DNA of 27,186 nt, taken from IMG/VR virus record IMGVR_UViG_3300037585_002151, positions 1-27,186 of that record, one strand, 5' to 3'. A model generated the notes under the pieces. That model was not told the origin of the DNA, searched no databases, and saw nothing but the letters and a program-made list of their open reading frames with translations. The position numbers and the translations under genes were made by a program. Each line of letters begins with the position of its first letter. Position 1 is the stretch's first letter. Positions 14,029 to 25,678 of this stretch are shown here, one piece after another. This DNA comes from a virus.

Positions 14029-14347
14029 GGCAAAAGGACGTAGACTTCAACAATGGTTTCGTGATTTACTTATTGAGAAATTAGAAGTTCATCCAGAAGA
14101 TATAGAATCTCGCAGCATGGGCGCAGGTGGGGAAGACCTCATCATGGCTCGTGCTGCGAGAGCAAAGTTCCCCTATTCTATTGAATGCAAAAATCAAGAA
14201 AGTGTTAACGTTTGGAAATCGTATGAACAAGCAAAGGAAAATGCTGGTGATTATGAACCAATCGTAGTTCTAAAACGTAATAACACTAAACCTCTAGTCT
14301 TGGTTGATGCAGACTATTTCGTTCAATTACACGATAAAAACTCCTAA
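14009..14347 (+). CDS. PDDEXK-family nuclease, Holliday-junction-resolvase-like
   Basis: Start placed at ATG 14009, giving 112 residues (TTG 13997 would add four). The protein has a basic N-terminal helix (SAKAKGRRLQQWFRDLL), then GAGGEDLIMA (Asp43), then FPYSIECKNQE (Glu59, Lys61), the D-E-x-K metal site of restriction-like nucleases. The small size and the GED/ECK layout resemble the phage resolvase-like endonucleases of marine phages. A role in recombination, branch cutting or host DNA degradation is plausible. Substrate is not determinable. It follows the reductase and zinc-ribbon genes in one transcription unit. Confidence 0.75.
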   Translation: MKTQSAKAKGRRLQQWFRDLLIEKLEVHPEDIESRSMGAGGEDLIMARAARAKFPYSIECKNQESVNVWKSYEQAKENAGDYEPIVVLKRNNTKPLVLVDADYFVQLHDKNS

Positions 14348-14380
14348 ATAGTTCGTAGTAATATAACAGATGGAGAGCTC

Positions 14381-14659
14381 ATGGAAGCGTTTAGCTTAAT
14401 CGCTGACCTCGGCTTTTCTATCGCGGCCGTCGTGATCGGCGGGTTTTTTATCATATTATTGTTAAAGTATATACTTGATTCGGTTGTGAGTAGTGCTGAA
14501 AGTTTAAATGGTATGATCTCTTCTTTAGACAACCGTATAAAGACTATTAATAATGAAATCGTGAGGTTAGACGCTCTAGTATGTCATGTGCTAGGAGTAA
14601 AGCCCGATACACGAAGAATGTCTGCTGCCGATGGGAAAGACGATTCTAGAAAAGACTAA
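14381..14659 (+). CDS. Small membrane protein A, paralogue of the next gene (holin-like)
   Basis: A 92-residue protein with one hydrophobic segment near the start (about residues 7-30, SIAAVVIGGFFIILLLKYIL). A helical region follows with SSLDNRIKTINNEIVRLD, and then a charged tail. GGAGAG lies at good spacing before the ATG. The gene after it, at 14665, has the same plan and a similar helix, so the two are likely ancient tandem paralogues. Similar proteins are common in marine phages. Membrane location is clear; a holin or other lysis function is only a guess. It directly precedes the curli cassette. Confidence 0.65.
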   Translation: MEAFSLIADLGFSIAAVVIGGFFIILLLKYILDSVVSSAESLNGMISSLDNRIKTINNEIVRLDALVCHVLGVKPDTRRMSAADGKDDSRKD

Positions 14660-14664
14660 TAGTT

Positions 14665-14931
14665 ATGGATTTAATAAATGTAGTAGAGTTAGTAAATCAA
14701 TATGGTGTACCCATAGTTGTCGCTGTGGGTATGGGTTATTTTATTTTTTATATTTGGAAGTTTGTTACAAATAACATTCTTCCAAGTTTAGATAAAGCAT
14801 TTGGTACTTTGGTACATTTGATTGACCGAGTAAGAATGTTGGACAACGACATGATTCGACTCGACCAAAAAATACACACCATCATAGAAATACAAGAATC
14901 AAGAAAACAGGTAGAAAAAGATGATGCTTAG
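14665..14931 (+). CDS. Small membrane protein B, paralogue of the previous gene
   Basis: An 88-residue protein: a hydrophobic segment at about residues 14-34 (VPIVVAVGMGYFIFYIW), then LIDRVRMLDNDMIRLDQKI, matching in layout and key residues the DNRIKTINNEIVRLD helix of the previous gene. No strong Shine-Dalgarno site is visible. Its last 11 bases overlap the csgF start, linking the accessory cassette to a typical phage gene. Function unknown; holin-like or membrane-coupled partner are possibilities. Confidence 0.65.
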   Translation: MDLINVVELVNQYGVPIVVAVGMGYFIFYIWKFVTNNILPSLDKAFGTLVHLIDRVRMLDNDMIRLDQKIHTIIEIQESRKQVEKDDA

Positions 14932-15364
14932 AGCTTCACTTTTTCTTCTCTGTCTATTGTCTGTAAACTCACATGCAGTTCAAATGACACATACGTTTAA
15001 ATCACCGTCTTTTAATGGAAATGGGTATAGTGCACATGTGTTGACAATAGAAAATCAAGAGTTTTCCAGAAGTGAAGCACTTAGGGAAAAGAAAGAATCT
15101 GCTGAACGTCAAGCAATACGAGACGCGGCAAACACGAACCTTTCGAAATTTATGAAAAACGTAGAGTCTAGAATATACGCCCAACTGTCTAAGCAGTTGG
15201 TGGACAGTATGTTTGGAGAAGATGCTTCAACATCAGGCACCGTTACTTTTGAGGGAACAACAATCAGTTATACCAAAAGCAGCGATACCGTAGATTTAAC
15301 AATTGTGGATACAAATGGTAGTTCGACTAATATCACTGTTCCTGTTGGCGACTTTACTTTCTAG
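14921..15364 (+). CDS. csgF: CsgF-like curli assembly protein
   Basis: A 147-residue protein with a cleavable signal peptide (two Met, then LRASLFLLCLLSVNSHA). The mature N-terminus VQMTHTFKSPSFNGNGY matches Escherichia coli CsgF, whose F-x-NPNFGGN segment inserts into the CsgG channel. A helical middle with QLSKQLVDSMFG and a beta-rich end (DLTIVDTNGSSTNITV) follow the CsgF plan. CsgF is the extracellular accessory factor that couples curlin secretion to nucleation. Its 3' end overlaps csgG by 50 bp in another frame. This is one of the strongest family assignments in the cassette after CsgG and the cyclase. Confidence 0.88.
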   Translation: MMLRASLFLLCLLSVNSHAVQMTHTFKSPSFNGNGYSAHVLTIENQEFSRSEALREKKESAERQAIRDAANTNLSKFMKNVESRIYAQLSKQLVDSMFGEDASTSGTVTFEGTTISYTKSSDTVDLTIVDTNGSSTNITVPVGDFTF

Positions 15365-16103
15365 TTGCGCGAGCATCCAATCACAGGATGCTCCTGCATC
15401 AAGCACTGTGCCGTTAGTGAATGAACTATACAATATGACACCGCCTGTTCGTAAGGTGCCAATCGCAGTGTATAAGTTTAATGATGTAACAGGACAAAGA
15501 AAATCGAGTTCATCACTTGCACTGTTGAGTAGTGCGGTGACACAGGGTGGAGATATATGGTTAATCCAAGCCCTAAAGAAAGCAGGTAAGGGTGAGTGGT
15601 TTCAAGTTATAGAAAGAATGGAACTGGAAAATCTATTAAAAGAAAGACAGATTATACGAAACACAAGAAAGAACTATGATGGAGATAAGGCAGAAAAGAT
15701 TAAACCTCTATTGTTCGCAGGAGTATTGCTGACAGGAGGTATAGTTGGATATGACACCAATACAAGTACAGGTGGTATGGGTGTAAGATATTTGGGTATT
15801 GGTATGTCTGATGAATATCGTAAGGACATGGTAACAGTGGCTTTACGATTAATATCTGTACAGACAGGTGAAGTTTTATTGGCAGTTAGTTCTCAGAAAA
15901 CTATTCTGAGTACAAAGTTATCTGCAACAGTTTTTAAGTTTTTGGATATGGGAACTAAATTGCTGGAGACAGAATCAGGGATAACGGACAATGAGTCCAC
16001 AACCTATGCAGTAAGGAAGGCAATCGAACAATCGGTTATTGAAATAATCAAGGAAGGCGAGAAAAAAGAATTATGGGAATTTAAAAAGGAGGAAGAAAAA
16101 TGA
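15315..16103 (+). CDS. csgG: CsgG-like outer-membrane curli secretion channel lipoprotein
   Basis: Start placed at ATG 15315 inside csgF, because MVVRLISLFLLATLLSSC is a complete lipoprotein signal with lipidated Cys18; TTG 15303 would add four residues. The 262-residue product compares with 277 in Escherichia coli. Family landmarks in order are VYKFNDVTGQ, ERMELENLLKERQIIR, GGIVGYDTNTSTGGMGVRYLGIG, TGEVL, KTILS and a late ELWEF. CsgG forms a nine-subunit beta-barrel that exports unfolded curlins. In E. coli the constriction uses Tyr51, Asn55 and Phe56; here the matching loop reads KSSSSLALLSSAV, so those aromatics are not evident. The gene ends in the ATGA start of the curlin gene. Confidence 0.93.
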   Translation: MVVRLISLFLLATLLSSCASIQSQDAPASSTVPLVNELYNMTPPVRKVPIAVYKFNDVTGQRKSSSSLALLSSAVTQGGDIWLIQALKKAGKGEWFQVIERMELENLLKERQIIRNTRKNYDGDKAEKIKPLLFAGVLLTGGIVGYDTNTSTGGMGVRYLGIGMSDEYRKDMVTVALRLISVQTGEVLLAVSSQKTILSTKLSATVFKFLDMGTKLLETESGITDNESTTYAVRKAIEQSVIEIIKEGEKKELWEFKKEEEK

Positions 16104-16783
16104 GAACGGGCATACTTACGATACTCGCTTACTTCGTTATGTGCAGTGTGAGTTATGCGAGTGACGTTTACATAACACAGTCTGGTGCGAGCCTGACTGC
16201 AAACATCAATCAAGATGGACAGACTAATAAGTTTGGTGATGGTACAACGGGCGTTACTTTAACAGGTGACAATCAGACATTGGACATTGACCAGATTGGT
16301 AACACTAACACTATCGCCGCATCTGTTGTAGGTGCAACACAGACGTTTACTCTCAGACAAGAAGGTAACAGTAATACTTCTAATGTGTCTGTAGGAGCTC
16401 AAGGTGCTTCTGCTGATAACAGTATCATTCAAACACTCACTGGTAATTCAAATACCACTAACGTGAACGTAGCAAAGACTGCATCGGGCGCTGATGCTGA
16501 TGTTGATATCGTTGCTACAGGTGACAGCAATACTATTACCGTGAATGAGAATAGCACTGCAAGTATGATTGGCGATGATAAGAAGATAACGAATATCACA
16601 GCTATTGGGTCGAGTAATACTATTACGTCAACTCATACCGGCGCTGCTGACCAAGACACTACTTTACACCATACAGGTGCTTCTAGTACATTTTCGATTA
16701 CTCAAGGTGGTGCTCATGATGGCACAACTTCTATAACAACGGTTGGATCAGGACACAGTGTTACGGTTACTATGGACGATTAG
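16100..16783 (+). CDS. Curlin-repeat amyloid subunit 1 (CsgA/CsgB-like)
   Basis: A 227-residue protein with a Sec signal peptide (MRTGILTILAYFVMCSVSYA) and a mature part made of about seven degenerate curlin repeats. Repeat cores include DQIGNTNTI, RQEGNSNTS, TLTGNSNTT, VATGDSNTI and TAIGSSNTI, spaced about 22-30 residues apart. This fits the Q-x-G-x-x-N pattern of CsgA/CsgB, with the Gln often replaced. Such repeats stack as strand-turn-strand units in an amyloid fibre. Asp, Thr, Asn and Ser dominate and Cys is absent from the mature part. The start follows a GGAGGAAG site and overlaps csgG by 4 bp. Whether it is the major subunit or the nucleator cannot be decided. Confidence 0.85.
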   Translation: MRTGILTILAYFVMCSVSYASDVYITQSGASLTANINQDGQTNKFGDGTTGVTLTGDNQTLDIDQIGNTNTIAASVVGATQTFTLRQEGNSNTSNVSVGAQGASADNSIIQTLTGNSNTTNVNVAKTASGADADVDIVATGDSNTITVNENSTASMIGDDKKITNITAIGSSNTITSTHTGAADQDTTLHHTGASSTFSITQGGAHDGTTSITTVGSGHSVTVTMDD

Positions 16784-17822
16784 TCTCATTCTCTTTAGCA
16801 TCGGTGCTTATGGTGCTATTGGGAATGTGGTGAAACACAAAGGAAATGCTTCTGTAGAACGGTCAGGTGAGAAATCCGTTCTACAGAAGGGTTCTGATAT
16901 CGAGTTCAAGGACACGGTGAAAACTGGTAAAGGCGATGTTGGTATCAAGTTCGTAGATGACACCAACGTAGCAGTGAGTGCCCACAGTGCCTTGGTTATC
17001 GATGAGTTTATCTATGATCCCAACTCTAGAAAGGGGTCGAAGTTGGTTATGAATATTGCACTTGGCACAGTGCGTTATGCGAGTGGTAATATTGCGAAGC
17101 TGAGCAATCAGAATGTAGACATTCGGACACCGACAGCAAGGATTGGTGTGTTGGGAACTGCATTCAGTATGACGGTGGATGAGGTTGGTAAGTCTTTAAT
17201 TATTCTGTTACCCAATGCTGATGGGACAGTGGGTAAGATATCTGTGGATACTGATGTAGGACAGGTTATAATGAACCAAGCATTTCAGTCAACAGTGGTT
17301 GGTACAGCAGAGGCAAAACCATCCAAGCCAGTGATACTTGATTTAACACTGGATCAGATTAACAACTTATTGATTATCAGACCACCAAAAAAGAAGATTA
17401 TAGCGTTGCTTAGTGATTCAAAGAAAAGTAAGAATTTGCTGGATATTGATTTTCTTGAGTTTACAGGGTTGGATAAGAACGAGTTAGAAGAAGACCTGTT
17501 TGAGTTTAACGAGTTGGACATTAACGATTTGGATGTGGAGTTACTTGGTAACATCCTTGACCAGATTGCTCTTGCCCTAGCACAGGCAGAGTTGATAGAT
17601 GGCCGAACCAGCGGGTTTAACAGGGCAACACAGGTTAATACGATAGTGGACGGCAACACAACACGCATAATACGGAGAGTGGGCAACAGTACGATAGACC
17701 TAGATTTAATTAACGATTACGGATATACAATAAATTTAACACAGGGCGGAATACCTGTGCCAGAGATAACAACGAGAGATGAGGACGCTTCTAACACTAT
17801 TACTATCTATCAGTCTGAGTAG
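16758..17822 (+). CDS. Secreted FecR-domain protein with curlin-like C-terminal tail
   Basis: GTG 16758 is chosen because it opens a signal peptide (MLRLLWTISLILFSIGAYGA) and has AGGA just upstream; TTG 16743 is the alternative. The 354-residue product has a FecR domain over about residues 25-140: a repeat of GKGDVGIKFVDDTNVAVSAHS type, LVMNIALGTVRYASG, and VDIRTPTARIGVLGTAF. Next come a strand-rich region, an acidic Leu/Glu/Asp-rich stretch (about 215-265) and a C-terminal tail with curlin-like pieces (NTIVDGNTTRIIRRVGNSTI, NLTQGG, NTITIYQSE). FecR domains of this type often neighbour CHASE2 cyclases. It overlaps both curlin genes and may bridge the fibre to sensing. Confidence 0.8.
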   Translation: MLRLLWTISLILFSIGAYGAIGNVVKHKGNASVERSGEKSVLQKGSDIEFKDTVKTGKGDVGIKFVDDTNVAVSAHSALVIDEFIYDPNSRKGSKLVMNIALGTVRYASGNIAKLSNQNVDIRTPTARIGVLGTAFSMTVDEVGKSLIILLPNADGTVGKISVDTDVGQVIMNQAFQSTVVGTAEAKPSKPVILDLTLDQINNLLIIRPPKKKIIALLSDSKKSKNLLDIDFLEFTGLDKNELEEDLFEFNELDINDLDVELLGNILDQIALALAQAELIDGRTSGFNRATQVNTIVDGNTTRIIRRVGNSTIDLDLINDYGYTINLTQGGIPVPEITTRDEDASNTITIYQSE

Positions 17823-18573
17823 CACAGCACTTGCTGGAAACAGCGTGTATCTTGAGCAGATTGGTACGAGTACAGATACTACTGTCAGCATAGACATTGA
17901 CGGTAATAACAATTCTATCAATTTGTCGATGGAGGGCACTGGTAATGAACTAAATTTCAAACAAGAGGGAAACAATAATACCATCAGTTGGGTTTCCTAT
18001 TGGGGTTCTGGTAAAATATGGGGCGGTGACTTGGATGGTAATAACAACACACTTAAAATTGAACAGTACAACACCACAGGCTCAGACTCTAATAGAGTAG
18101 GTTTTCATATGCCTGGAAACAGTAATACTATTCATGTTTGTCAGGGAGCAATATTTTCTAGCAGCACAGACACAACATGTTCAGGCTCACAGTCTCAAGA
18201 ATATGGTGGACACACCATAAATCTGGATGTGCATGCAAATGGTAACAACATAAAAATAGGACAAGAGACAGGTACAGGTAATGCTGACCACTACGCACAG
18301 ATATACTATTACAACGGTGATAATAACAGCACTTTTATTACTCAAAAGGGAAATGGTGATAAAGATTTGAGAATGGACATAAGGACTGATGGTGGGGAAC
18401 AAGAGATTATGCAAAAAGGAGATGGTGCACATACAGGAGTAGTTAATCTTCAAGGTAGTTATCACACAGATATTACACTCATACAACGAGGCAACACAGC
18501 ACAGTCTTATTCGTTAACACAAAATTGTCAAACAAGTGGCGGGTGCGCTGTTTCGGTGACACAAGGAAACTGA
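17779..18573 (+). CDS. Curlin-repeat amyloid subunit 2, cysteine-containing
   Basis: A 264-residue protein with signal peptide MRTLLTLLLSISLSSTALA, ending in an A-x-A cleavage site. Curlin-like repeats include LEQIGTSTDTT, DGNNNSINLSMEGTGNEL, FKQEGNNNTI, DGNNNTLKIEQ and GNSNTIHVCQG, then looser repeats to the end (LIQRGNTAQSYSLTQN, VSVTQGN). Unusually there are four Cys in two pairs (HVCQG with TTCSG; QNCQT with GGCAV), which could form disulfides. It overlaps the FecR gene by 44 bp and is followed one base later by the cyclase gene. It is either a second fibre subunit or the nucleator; its greater length and Cys pairs make a cap or anchor possible. Confidence 0.82.
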   Translation: MRTLLTLLLSISLSSTALAGNSVYLEQIGTSTDTTVSIDIDGNNNSINLSMEGTGNELNFKQEGNNNTISWVSYWGSGKIWGGDLDGNNNTLKIEQYNTTGSDSNRVGFHMPGNSNTIHVCQGAIFSSSTDTTCSGSQSQEYGGHTINLDVHANGNNIKIGQETGTGNADHYAQIYYYNGDNNSTFITQKGNGDKDLRMDIRTDGGEQEIMQKGDGAHTGVVNLQGSYHTDITLIQRGNTAQSYSLTQNCQTSGGCAVSVTQGN

Positions 18574-18574
18574 C

Positions 18575-20629
18575 ATGAAGAAATGGATTATATCATTTGC
18601 AGTAATTCTGATTCTGTGTGGAATTCGTTTTGCAGATCCGTGGTTTCTTGATGTGGTAAGACTCAAGGCATTAGACCAACACCAAAGAAACCAGACAGAA
18701 CAGAGCTTGGATAATCTTGTTACAATAGAAATCAATAACGAAACTCTAAATAAAAAAGGTCAATGGCCCTGGAATAGAGAAACGTTATCCAAAGAAATAA
18801 TACGGTTGTATGAGGCTGGCGCGGGTATGGTTGTGCTTCCTATACTCTTTGCACAACCTGATAGATTTGGTGGAGATGATTCACTTGCAGATGTTCTCAG
18901 TCAAACCCCAACCATTATAGGACAAATACCTACCACACAGAAAGATAACAGTGGTGTCATACGAGGCGTTGCAACAGTGGGTGAGCCATGGAATGGTTGG
19001 GTATATCAGTATCCAGGCGCAATCGGACCTATACCTTTACTAGCAGAAAAATCACATGCTGTTGGTATGATGATTATTGCACCAGAGAAGGACGGCGTGG
19101 TTCGTCGTATGCCCTTGGTAGTTGCAGTGGGTGACCAACTATACCCAGCAATGAGCACGGAAATATTACGGATGGTTGCCGGTGATATATCTTATCAAAT
19201 GAAAACAGGTGTGGCAGGTGTTGAGAAATTACGCATACCTAAGTTTAAGATGATTGATACGGATGCACATGGCAATATATGGTTGGACTTCAAATGGAAA
19301 ACTCCAGTTCATGCATTGCATGAAGAGCTACCGGACCTTAGTGGCAAGATAGTAATTGTGTCAATAACAGCATCTGGCCTTGACAGTGCAGTATCTACGC
19401 CTGTTGGTGTAATCTATTCACATGACCTTATTGGTGCTTCTGTTGCGACAATGATGACAGGCAGAAATATCACTAGACCATATTGGACTAACCTTGCCGA
19501 GTTGGGTTCATCGTTTGGTCTTGCACTTTTATTGATGATTGTTGTGTTATTGCTACCTTGGTATTTTGGTGCAACACTCATGCCCGCAGCTGCTGTGGGT
19601 TTATTTTATGGAAGTTCACACCTTTTCACCAAACACGATTATTTGGTGGATTGGAGTTACCCTGTAATTACAGTATTCTTTGCTTGGTCAATTGCAGCAT
19701 TTTTGAGATTTATGGAAGAACACAAAAAGAGAATGGAAATCAAAAAACAATTTGAACATTATCTTGCACCGGCAATGGTTAAGAAGTTACAGAGGAATCC
19801 AGACTTATTAAAATTAGGAGGTGAGACGAGAGAATTAACATTATTATTTTGTGACATACGAGGATTTACACCTATCAGTGAACAATTCAAAACTGATCCA
19901 CAAGGATTAACAAAGCTCATTAATAGGTTTTTGACTCCTATGACAGATATCATCATGACTAATGATGGTACAATAGATAAATATATGGGTGACTGCATAA
20001 TGGCATTTTGGAATGCTCCATTAGACGTTAAAGAACAACGTAGATTGGCAATTAAGTCCTCTCATGAGATGTTGAAACATCTTGAGGGATTAAACGTGGA
20101 GCTGAAGAAAGAGGAATCTCTTCCTATAAACATTGGTATTGGATTAAATACGGGAGATGTAGTCGTGGGCAACATGGGCAGTAATCAAAGATTTGATTAT
20201 AGTTGTTTGGGAGATGCAGTTAATCTTGCAGCCAGACTTGAGGGGCAGAGTAAAGAGTATGGTATGAAAATAATTCTTGGCGAAGAAACCGCCAAGGAAA
20301 TGGAGAGTGAATTTGTAGTATTAGAATTAGATAAAATCGCAGTGAAGGGTAAAACAGAAGGTGTCACTATCTACACATCTTTAGGAACTCATAAAAATCT
20401 TTTCAATACGATGAACTATGATATGGCGCAAAGACAACATGGGAAGTTTTTGTTTTTCTATCGTAAACAAGCTTGGCAGTTGGCATCAAAATGGCTTGAT
20501 GATTTAGAGTTTGAGTTCAACGGCATGATGAAAGATTATTATGCCATGATGAGAGATAGAATAGAACAATTACAGAAAGAAGACCTTCCTGAAGATTGGG
20601 ATGGCGTGTATAGGGCGACAACAAAATGA
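18575..20629 (+). CDS. CHASE2-domain class III nucleotidyl (adenylate) cyclase
   Basis: A 684-residue membrane protein. It has a first membrane segment at residues 5-20, then a periplasmic CHASE2 sensor of about 280 residues (VTIEINNETLNKKGQWPWNR, SHAVGMMIIAPEKDGVVRR). Three membrane helices follow (about 311-330, 331-350, 361-380), then a cytosolic cyclase domain. Metal ligands are Asp427 (LLFCDIRGFT) and Asp473 (DKYMGDCIMAF). Lys469 fits the adenine-specifying Lys, with Ser543 (DYSCLGD) in the Thr/Asp partner position; Asn550 and Arg554 (VNLAARLE) are the transition-state residues. All catalytic positions are present, so ATP to cyclic AMP is likely. The final 80 residues are extra. It overlaps the next gene by ATGA. 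Confidence 0.93.
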   Translation: MKKWIISFAVILILCGIRFADPWFLDVVRLKALDQHQRNQTEQSLDNLVTIEINNETLNKKGQWPWNRETLSKEIIRLYEAGAGMVVLPILFAQPDRFGGDDSLADVLSQTPTIIGQIPTTQKDNSGVIRGVATVGEPWNGWVYQYPGAIGPIPLLAEKSHAVGMMIIAPEKDGVVRRMPLVVAVGDQLYPAMSTEILRMVAGDISYQMKTGVAGVEKLRIPKFKMIDTDAHGNIWLDFKWKTPVHALHEELPDLSGKIVIVSITASGLDSAVSTPVGVIYSHDLIGASVATMMTGRNITRPYWTNLAELGSSFGLALLLMIVVLLLPWYFGATLMPAAAVGLFYGSSHLFTKHDYLVDWSYPVITVFFAWSIAAFLRFMEEHKKRMEIKKQFEHYLAPAMVKKLQRNPDLLKLGGETRELTLLFCDIRGFTPISEQFKTDPQGLTKLINRFLTPMTDIIMTNDGTIDKYMGDCIMAFWNAPLDVKEQRRLAIKSSHEMLKHLEGLNVELKKEESLPINIGIGLNTGDVVVGNMGSNQRFDYSCLGDAVNLAARLEGQSKEYGMKIILGEETAKEMESEFVVLELDKIAVKGKTEGVTIYTSLGTHKNLFNTMNYDMAQRQHGKFLFFYRKQAWQLASKWLDDLEFEFNGMMKDYYAMMRDRIEQLQKEDLPEDWDGVYRATTK

Positions 20630-20854: not shown

Positions 20855-21046
20855 ATGGATACATATACACACACATTACTTGCGCTTTTTTGCATGATAT
20901 TCTGTTGGTTTTGGGGTCGTCATCTTTCAACGAAAAACATCATCAGCCATTTGTTGGATACGTTGGAACGTGATGGATATATCAAAACCAAAATCGATTC
21001 GGACGGTGATAAATGTTTGATAAAATTTGAGGAAATGAATAAATGA
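20855..21046 (+). CDS. Small membrane-anchored phage protein
   Basis: A 63-residue protein with a hydrophobic N-terminal segment (about residues 7-21, LLALFCMIFCWFWG) and a soluble tail with DTLERDGYIKTKIDSDGDKC. The layout is like small conserved proteins of marine T4-like phages that I recall as hypothetical. It is first in its transcript behind the early promoter. It overlaps the lipoprotein gene by 4 bp. Confidence 0.6.
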   Translation: MDTYTHTLLALFCMIFCWFWGRHLSTKNIISHLLDTLERDGYIKTKIDSDGDKCLIKFEEMNK

Positions 21047-21447
21047 AGTCTGCTCTAATTGTTGGCGCTTTGGTGTCTTGTCTAACTCTTACAGCTTGTA
21101 ACTCTGTAACGAACCGACAAGGTGGTGCATTACTTGGTGGTGTCGCTGGTGGTATTTTAGGTAATCAAGTTGGTGGTGGTAACGGTAAGACTGTTGCAAC
21201 TATTGGTGGTGCAATACTAGGCACCATTGCTGGGTCACAGATTGGTGGAAACATTGATCGTCAGAATCAGCAACCGACTCAGATTATTGTGCAAAATCCA
21301 CAACCTATTCATTCAACTGATGCATGTCATGCTTATGTTAGAAATCAAGGCGCATATGCATCTTGTAAACGCGGCGTGGCACAACGTAATGCAGAGCTGC
21401 AACGAAGGTTGGAACGTGAAGCATATAAAGTGGGAAATCACAATTAA
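21043..21447 (+). CDS. Glycine-zipper outer-membrane lipoprotein (17-kDa antigen/SlyB-like)
   Basis: A 134-residue protein: lipoprotein signal MKSALIVGALVSCLTLTAC with the lipobox Cys at residue 19, then a glycine-zipper hairpin (ALLGGVAGGILGNQVGGG and IGGAILGTIAGSQIGGNID), the form of the 2TM glycine-zipper domain of SlyB and the rickettsial 17-kDa antigen. The tail has two Cys (DACHAY, ASCKRG) and ends in a basic helix. Such lipoproteins normally belong to bacterial envelopes. Here it sits between two phage early promoters, suggesting an envelope-modifying phage gene acquired from a host. Superinfection exclusion or membrane stabilisation are possible roles. Confidence 0.8.
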   Translation: MKSALIVGALVSCLTLTACNSVTNRQGGALLGGVAGGILGNQVGGGNGKTVATIGGAILGTIAGSQIGGNIDRQNQQPTQIIVQNPQPIHSTDACHAYVRNQGAYASCKRGVAQRNAELQRRLEREAYKVGNHN

Positions 21448-24725: not shown

Positions 24726-25202
24726 ATGCCATATACACCATTAATGTCTGAGGTTTTGGACAAAGTTGCGAAAGCGAAGAGTAAAGATAAGAAGGTTGAG
24801 TTGTTGAGACAACACAATACAGACGCATTGAGAATGGTTCTCAAGTCGTCTTTTGATCCCAACATTGAATGGGATTTGCCAGAAGGTGATGTTCCATACA
24901 CACCAAATGATGCTCCAGAAGGAACAGAGCATAACATGCTTGTACATGAGGCAAGAACTTTGTTTCATTATATTAAGGGTGGCAATCCTCAATTGACAGG
25001 TAACCGTAGAGAAAACATGTTTATTCAAATGTTGGAAGGGTTGCATCAAAATGAAGCAGAACTTGTGGTTGCTGCAAAGGACAAGGCTCTACACAGAAAG
25101 TATAAGGGTTTATCTGCTAACGTGGTAAAAGAAGCATTTGGTTGGACTGAAGATTATATGCAACCAGATGATGATTATCCAGGCGAACACGCAAGATCGT
25201 AA
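24726..25202 (+). CDS. Conserved marine T4-like phage protein (DUF6433-like)
   Basis: A 158-residue protein. The helical start SEVLDKVAKAKSKDKKVELL, the aromatic-acidic IEWDLPEGDVPYTPND and the basic middle KGGNPQLTGNRRENMFIQML resemble a conserved cyanophage/pelagiphage protein annotated as DUF6433. It sits next to RNase H, as I recall in those phages. No catalytic motif is evident; a replication or regulatory role is possible from context. Ends on a TAATG junction with the lysin gene. Confidence 0.7.
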   Translation: MPYTPLMSEVLDKVAKAKSKDKKVELLRQHNTDALRMVLKSSFDPNIEWDLPEGDVPYTPNDAPEGTEHNMLVHEARTLFHYIKGGNPQLTGNRRENMFIQMLEGLHQNEAELVVAAKDKALHRKYKGLSANVVKEAFGWTEDYMQPDDDYPGEHARS

Positions 25203-25678
25203 TGGATGTTGGTGTTTGGGTAACTGGGAGCATATTGGCTCTTGGTGGTATATTAGGTGCCTCTTGGTACACACAAGACAAAGAAAAACAGATAGAGTGT
25301 CTTGCTAAAAACTTGTACTTTGAGGTTGGAAATCAAGGCACAGCAGGAATGCTTGCTGTGTCTTCTGTTGTTATAAATCGTATCAATGACGATAGATTTC
25401 CAAGCACTATGTGTAAAGTGATCCATCAAAAAAGAGGTGGTGTTTGTCAATTTAGCTGGTATTGTGATAAAAAATCTGATAATCCATCAGACAAAAAAAT
25501 ATATCAAGAAAAACTTGACTTTGTTCGTAAATTGTTAGATAATGATAGACAGTGGGTTGACATCACAGATGGTGCAACAAACTACCACGCTAATTATGTT
25601 AGACCCTCTTGGAGAAAGAGGTTAAAAAGAACAACTGAAATTGATAAACATATTTTTTATAGATGGAATAAAAAATAA
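25202..25678 (+). CDS. SleB-type cell wall hydrolase (lysin candidate)
   Basis: A 158-residue protein. Residues 5-22 form a hydrophobic segment (VWVTGSILALGGILGASW) without a clear cleavage site, so it may be a membrane-anchored or signal-anchor-release form. The SleB-type domain follows: CLAKNLYFEVGNQGTAGMLA (the Glu of YFEV is the likely catalytic acid), VINRINDDRFPSTMCKVI, GVCQFSWYCD and ATNYHANYVRPSW. SleB-family enzymes cut peptidoglycan glycan strands. It could be the phage endolysin, exported without needing a large holin. It sits among replication genes, away from the spanin-like pair. Confidence 0.85.
   Translation: MDVGVWVTGSILALGGILGASWYTQDKEKQIECLAKNLYFEVGNQGTAGMLAVSSVVINRINDDRFPSTMCKVIHQKRGGVCQFSWYCDKKSDNPSDKKIYQEKLDFVRKLLDNDRQWVDITDGATNYHANYVRPSWRKRLKRTTEIDKHIFYRWNKK

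Follow-up and report, generated by a model that had tools for sequence, protein, structure and literature searches.

Described curli modules and the present locus

Curli-type genes have been described in phages before. A 2020 paper reported CsgF and CsgG from pelagimyophages (PMC7029224) and a 2022 paper from Melnitz (PMC9004378), and the full order HK(s)-CsgF-CsgG-CsgA/B-FecR-CsgA/B-AC, including CsgA/B, FecR, an adenylate cyclase (AC) and a gene called histidine kinase (HK), was reported for pelagiphages of the Myoviridae and Podoviridae in the same year (PMC9599517). Adhesion, aggregation and blocking of other phages have already been printed as hypotheses in these papers. The stretch analysed here (referred to as the window) comprises the whole of the IMG/VR virus record IMGVR_UViG_3300037585_002151, 27,186 bases long and a fragment of a phage genome, and carries a curli module of eight genes at positions 14381-20629. 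This is the already-known pelagiphage type VIII secretion (curli) module, of which the window is one further example. A preliminary description of this DNA had held that no phage system with an export channel plus its substrates had been described; that was wrong, as the three papers precede it. The window agrees with the gene order of PMC9599517 when a pair of genes for small membrane and coiled-coil proteins (TMcc1 and TMcc2) is taken as HK, an equation that rests on position. The present analysis adds profile and fold support for the curlins, a variable N-terminus of the second curlin that includes PA14, the pairing of FecR with the cyclase, and corrections of gene labels.

The same eight-gene order is present in the complete genomes of the cultured Pelagibacter phage HTVC008M (gp11-gp19, NC_020484) and Methylophilales phage Melnitz (genes 97-104, MZ577097), with identities to the window of 51-53% for CsgG, 42-47% for CsgF and 38-39% for the cyclase. 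The window differs in that its curlin 2 is without the extra N-terminal domain found in HTVC008M, and in that its cyclase has the motif VN where Melnitz has VS. Cellular alphaproteobacterial curli operons (Erythrobacter, Hyphomonas, Henriciella and others) likewise have CsgF-CsgG followed by curlins and share the framework of the CsgG constriction loop; unlike the window, none of 68 such loci had FecR, a CHASE2 cyclase or the TMcc pair. With csgBAC-csgDEFG of E. coli the window shares CsgG, CsgF and curlin-type substrates, whereas in the phages searched CsgE was not found, and cyclase and FecR are added. CHASE2 cyclases of bacteria such as Sinorhizobium, where CyaD1, CyaD2 and CyaK sense via the outer-membrane protein NsrA (PMC13001267), resemble the window protein in joining CHASE2 to a class III cyclase, often with FecR genes nearby, but the window cyclase is linked with a phage-borne curli operon.

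Gene layout of the module

All open frames of the window were listed, and Pfam, PHROGs and NCBIfam were searched for families matching the module genes; recognition of signal peptides, membrane spans and the lipobox was by eye. The features, in their order along the module, are as follows (aa, amino acids; E, expectation value).

14343..14350, + strand: CCTAAATA, late-promoter-like element with a TAAATA core at the module start; it overlaps the resolvase stop codon
14381..14659, + strand: TMcc1, small membrane and coiled-coil protein 1, 92 aa (phrog_18771, E 6e-24)
14665..14931, + strand: TMcc2, small membrane and coiled-coil protein 2, 88 aa (phrog_18771, E 2e-30)
14921..15364, + strand: CsgF, secreted accessory factor of the pore (PF10614, E 8.1e-22; N-terminal motif HTFKSPSFNGNGYS)
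15315..16103, + strand: CsgG, outer-membrane lipoprotein pore, 262 aa (PF03783, E 1.7e-55)
16100..16783, + strand: curlin 1, CsgA/B-like, with signal peptide, 227 aa (NCBIfam CsgA, E 5e-6; Curlin_rpt, E 0.039)
16758..17822, + strand: secreted FecR-domain protein, GTG start preferred over a longer TTG start at 16743 (PF04773, E 2.1e-6; phrog_37870)
17779..18573, + strand: curlin 2, CsgA/B-like, with signal peptide, 264 aa, repeats only (Curlin_rpt, E 8e-4)
18575..20629, + strand: CHASE2-class III adenylate cyclase, 684 aa (CHASE2, E 4e-34; Guanylate_cyc, E 4.9e-20)

Neighbouring genes of the module abut or overlap. The module starts two genes 5' of CsgF and ends one gene past curlin 2, so that the range of 14921-18573 given in the preliminary description contained real genes but was too short: the FecR protein between the curlins, the cyclase and the small membrane proteins at 14381-14931 belong to it too. 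Its placing of a curli-type set in a T4-like phage segment was borne out by CsgF, CsgG, the two curlins and a T4-type primase, which matched 2386 T4-type phage records, Melnitz and Mosig best.

CsgG and CsgF

The assignment of the frame at 15315-16103 to the CsgG family stands, with a PF03783 score of 188 bits against a cut-off of 20.8. The protein has the lipobox LSSC and matches E. coli CsgG in the PDB over residues 8-261 (E 1.3e-44). The CsgF-like gene of the earlier description was likewise recovered as CsgF, and its N-terminal segment could be aligned to the solved E. coli CsgF (MTFQFRNPNFGGN), although this alignment is weak taken alone. On family membership, the identity of both CsgF and CsgG is regarded as certain. 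Median ratios of nonsynonymous to synonymous substitution rates (dN/dS) were 0.10 for CsgG and 0.185 for CsgF. The constriction loop of phage CsgG has the length and framework of that of cellular alphaproteobacterial CsgG, and the pore-facing N-terminal motif of CsgF is retained, which together are evidence against a rebuilt or inverted pore. A view of the loop as unusual, taken from comparison with E. coli CsgG, was dropped, as the cellular alphaproteobacterial protein has a matching loop. A CsgG-like match (38% identity) was also seen in the Salmonella phage record OR851715.1, a short, unannotated record of 1499 bp that is likely host DNA.

Distribution and selection

Searching IMG/VR with CsgG of the window yielded 36 loci with the same gene order as far as each contig reaches (loci are given as L numbers below), and a second scan, by profile, revealed at least 536 viral relatives. 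Each of 32 well-covered new loci of this second scan had CsgF, CsgG, curlin, FecR and cyclase, and the TMcc pair was detected in 19 of the 32. Among 50,697 phage records, TMcc genes occurred only in the six that also hold CsgG-CsgF. The search of viral collections for the same gene order, proposed in the preliminary description, thus recovered it in dozens of viral loci besides HTVC008M and Melnitz, which makes an assembly chimera very unlikely. A tree of 120 CsgG proteins, made by a quick method and containing several long branches, separated the viral sequences from 67 cellular ones by one split with a support of 99. Purifying selection acts on every module gene (median dN/dS 0.08-0.19); the corresponding medians of the primase, reductase, resolvase and exonuclease genes were 0.07-0.18, the reductase being represented by 2 pairs only. 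Phage-type module genes were also carried by L040-L043 and L112, which come from assemblies of Rhodobacteraceae, Pelagibacter and Flavobacteriaceae; these are probably phage contigs mis-binned into bacterial assemblies.

Curlins

The two curlin-repeat proteins of the preliminary description hold up as curlins through the combined evidence of NCBIfam CsgA, motif counts, phage-derived profiles and a fold match. Plain autocorrelation of the curlins gave no significant period and was replaced by motif counts and profile searches. The motifs GNxN and xVxQxG were observed 4-5 times against 0.1-0.5 expected from shuffled sequences, and profiles derived from the phage curlins matched the curlin genes adjoining csgG in most of the 68 cellular alphaproteobacterial loci, down to E 1e-15. 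The AlphaFold model of curlin 2 is a beta-solenoid with a mean predicted local distance difference test score (pLDDT) of 76.9, for which the top row of VIA-align was 8c50, CsgA of Pontibacter korlensis (Z 19.9, 230 residues, root-mean-square deviation (rmsd) 9.0); Foldseek of the same model against the PDB returned nothing at E 0.001. The median dN/dS values of the curlins were 0.135 and 0.156.

The second curlin is the variable position of the module, its N-terminus being longer in about 20 viral loci. A PA14 domain lies N-terminal to the second curlin in HTVC008M (E 2.7e-6), L220 (E 2.7e-10) and L230 (E 2.8e-11), and the PA14-curlin fusions are located at 9483-10805 in L038, 8516-9850 in L220 and 5262-6548 in L230. 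N-terminal domains other than PA14 were present in L185, L194-L199, L211 and L225, of which those of L185 and L199 gave a DUF4350 match below the DUF4350 cut-off only. The extra N-terminal domains, PA14 included, would fit a role in surface adhesion. The papers on the pelagiphage curli module consulted here make no mention of PA14.

FecR protein, cyclase and small membrane proteins

The N-terminus of the FecR protein is a signal peptide followed directly by the FecR domain, and there is no cytoplasmic anti-sigma tail ahead of a membrane span; the protein is therefore not built like an iron regulator of the FecI/FecR type, and the published label of this kind does not fit it. Its C-terminal tail contains, in alignments, two conserved glutamines 23 residues apart (INLTQ...ITIYQ), a pair resembling the spacing of curlin repeats. 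The pattern ends 43 of 53 new FecR frames, some of the others being cut. When a profile of the tail was run against cellular loci, curlins made up 6 of the 10 top matches (P 3e-11), so that a weak likeness of the tail to curlin is suggested. The AlphaFold model of the FecR protein (mean pLDDT 57.6) is confident in the FecR domain alone, and its tail is not interpretable.

The cyclase contains the motifs FCDIRGF, IDKYMGD and FDYSCLGDAVNLAARLE (also given as FDYS...AVNLAARLE), and all class III residues are in place: the metal-binding Asp pair, the Lys/Asp base contacts and the Asn-Arg transition-state pair. Its median dN/dS was 0.079. Modules that are otherwise similar differ in which of two CHASE2 cyclase lineages stands at this position (the window versus L006, L008, L012 and L039); the window protein has the canonical asparagine of VN, while most close relatives, like Melnitz, belong to the commoner lineage with the serine of VS. 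Of 20 alphaproteobacterial CHASE2 cyclases sampled, 13 had a FecR gene within approximately 4 kb, but FecR was found in 0 of the 68 cellular curli loci (1.3 Mb in total, short contigs of metagenome-assembled genomes counted), the two samples differing in size and choice. FecR and the cyclase thus seem to be a bacterial sensor pair that the viral lineage has added to curli.

The TMcc proteins are 88-105 aa long, with one hydrophobic span and a coiled-coil-like tail. TMcc1 matched no kinase family in Pfam or NCBIfam, and HATPase_c was absent from the window and from the whole genomes of HTVC008M and Melnitz, with positive results in 14 of 14 control genomes. If the TMcc genes are, as their position suggests, the ones so named, the published label of histidine kinase does not fit proteins of this size without HATPase_c.

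Possible promoter and RNA elements

The element CCTAAATA may be the promoter of the module, an assignment made by motif. In most relatives a TAAATA core lies within 70 nucleotides 5' of the first module gene, and the full late-promoter motif TATAAATA precedes the module in L012, L026, L027, L029, L031 and L040. In the window, six TATAAATA motifs were located at 1297, 1306, 2336, 2366, 3231 and 6440, all on the + strand, all in the first 6.5 kb and near structural-type genes. An argument that the module is not late, drawn from the lack of TATAAATA at the window module, was withdrawn, as the relatives have TATAAATA or a TAAATA core just upstream. Searches for tRNA, tmRNA and Rfam families gave no match in the window, a fragment, so that the riboswitch model of PMC9004378 is without support there.

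Proposed function and alternatives

We consider it probable that the infected cell exports curlins via CsgG-CsgF and wears a surface amyloid, with FecR and the cyclase sensing and with attachment or a shield as the benefit. For export, this reading draws on the protein families and their conservation; what it says of sensing and of an ecological benefit goes beyond these. The display of curli on infected cells is, judged from the genes, the most likely outcome. Expression of the module would take place during infection, with a promoter that is probably of the late type; CsgG would be inserted as a lipoprotein pore capped by CsgF, and the curlins would pass the inner membrane by Sec, exit via CsgG and assemble on the infected cell into an amyloid of beta-solenoids. 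The curlin of some phages would bear an added adhesive domain such as PA14. The tail of the FecR protein probably contacts curlin or the pore and may inform the cyclase on export or envelope state, upon which the cyclase would set the cyclic AMP (cAMP) level of the infected cell. The likeliest benefit would be attachment between cells or to particles, by which released virions would meet new hosts, or else protection against other phages.

Several observations weigh against this interpretation. No clumping was seen in Melnitz cultures under the conditions used (PMC9004378). CsgE (PF10627), which is accessory and not universal, gave no match in the window, itself a fragment, in HTVC008M, in Melnitz or in two long viral records, with a positive E. 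coli control, and this leaves the gating of the pore unexplained, as in the publications. The window module is without the full TATAAATA, unlike the structural genes of the window. Both window curlins fall below the curated Pfam Curlin_rpt cut-off, curlin 2 just under it, and the high rmsd of the VIA match of curlin 2 is accompanied by scores of 14-17.6 for other beta-helices. As to the FecR tails, Pfam Curlin_rpt was not detected in them, and column-shuffled controls also enriched curlins, up to 3 of 10 top matches.

In a more elaborate form, which we consider doubtful, ocean phages would use curli as a modular surface display under cAMP feedback: curlin 2 would be a scaffold for grafted binding domains (PA14 plus two or more further types), FecR with its curlin-like tail would report fibre export to the CHASE2 cyclase, and the infected cell would become a self-monitoring sticky trap.

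Should this reading of the module hold, lytic phages make solitary, streamlined bacteria, the most abundant of the ocean, grow amyloid fibres, and encounter rates, aggregation and competition between phages would be altered. The points added here render the published hypotheses testable, and HTVC008M and Melnitz are direct cultured systems for this: the PA14-curlin fusions predict glycan-binding fibres, and FecR together with the CHASE2 cyclase predicts curlin-dependent cAMP.

An alternative that we regard as unlikely is that CsgG and CsgF have been repurposed as a lysis-timing pinholin or an inverted secretin and that the curlins are not functional substrates (PMC9004378). That paper supported it with an AlphaFold-based view of Melnitz CsgF and of a narrowed neck in CsgG, and a pore for which no CsgE was found may be ungated. 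Curlin genes are said there to be missing, but in the Melnitz record two proteins with curlin repeats are annotated within the module. Curlins are present in all 32 well-covered loci and are under selection. The retained pore-binding segment of CsgF and the alphaproteobacterial constriction loop also speak against it, as does a separate endolysin-like gene in the window (25202-25678).

Import of larger nutrients or cofactors through an open CsgG pore, with uptake regulated by FecR and the cyclase (PMC7029224, PMC9599517), would agree with the name of FecR and with the missing CsgE match. We find it distinctly improbable, as the FecR protein has a signal peptide and no cytoplasmic anti-sigma tail, and as two conserved curlins and the PA14-curlin fusions would be left unexplained. 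Use of the curlins or fibre by the virion or in packaging, and not by the cell, might be suggested by the late-promoter-like element preceding the module in relatives and by the help that amyloid-like fibres could give in attachment; signal peptides, a lipoprotein pore and an inner-membrane cyclase indicate the cell envelope instead and render it very improbable. A chimeric assembly or a passively hitch-hiking bacterial operon, for which nothing spoke beyond the origin of the window from a single uncultured contig, is in substance refuted by the other contigs, the two cultured complete genomes, the split of the viral clade and purifying selection.

Flanking genes

Upstream, the module is flanked by phage replication genes, namely the primase, a ribonucleotide reductase and a RusA-like resolvase, and downstream by exonuclease and endolysin-like genes. 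The host of the phage is inferred solely from its phage relatives. Just 3' of the module, at 21043-21447, there is a gene resembling a glycine-zipper lipoprotein (Rick_17kDa_Anti, E 4.6e-9), which is present in some relatives only.

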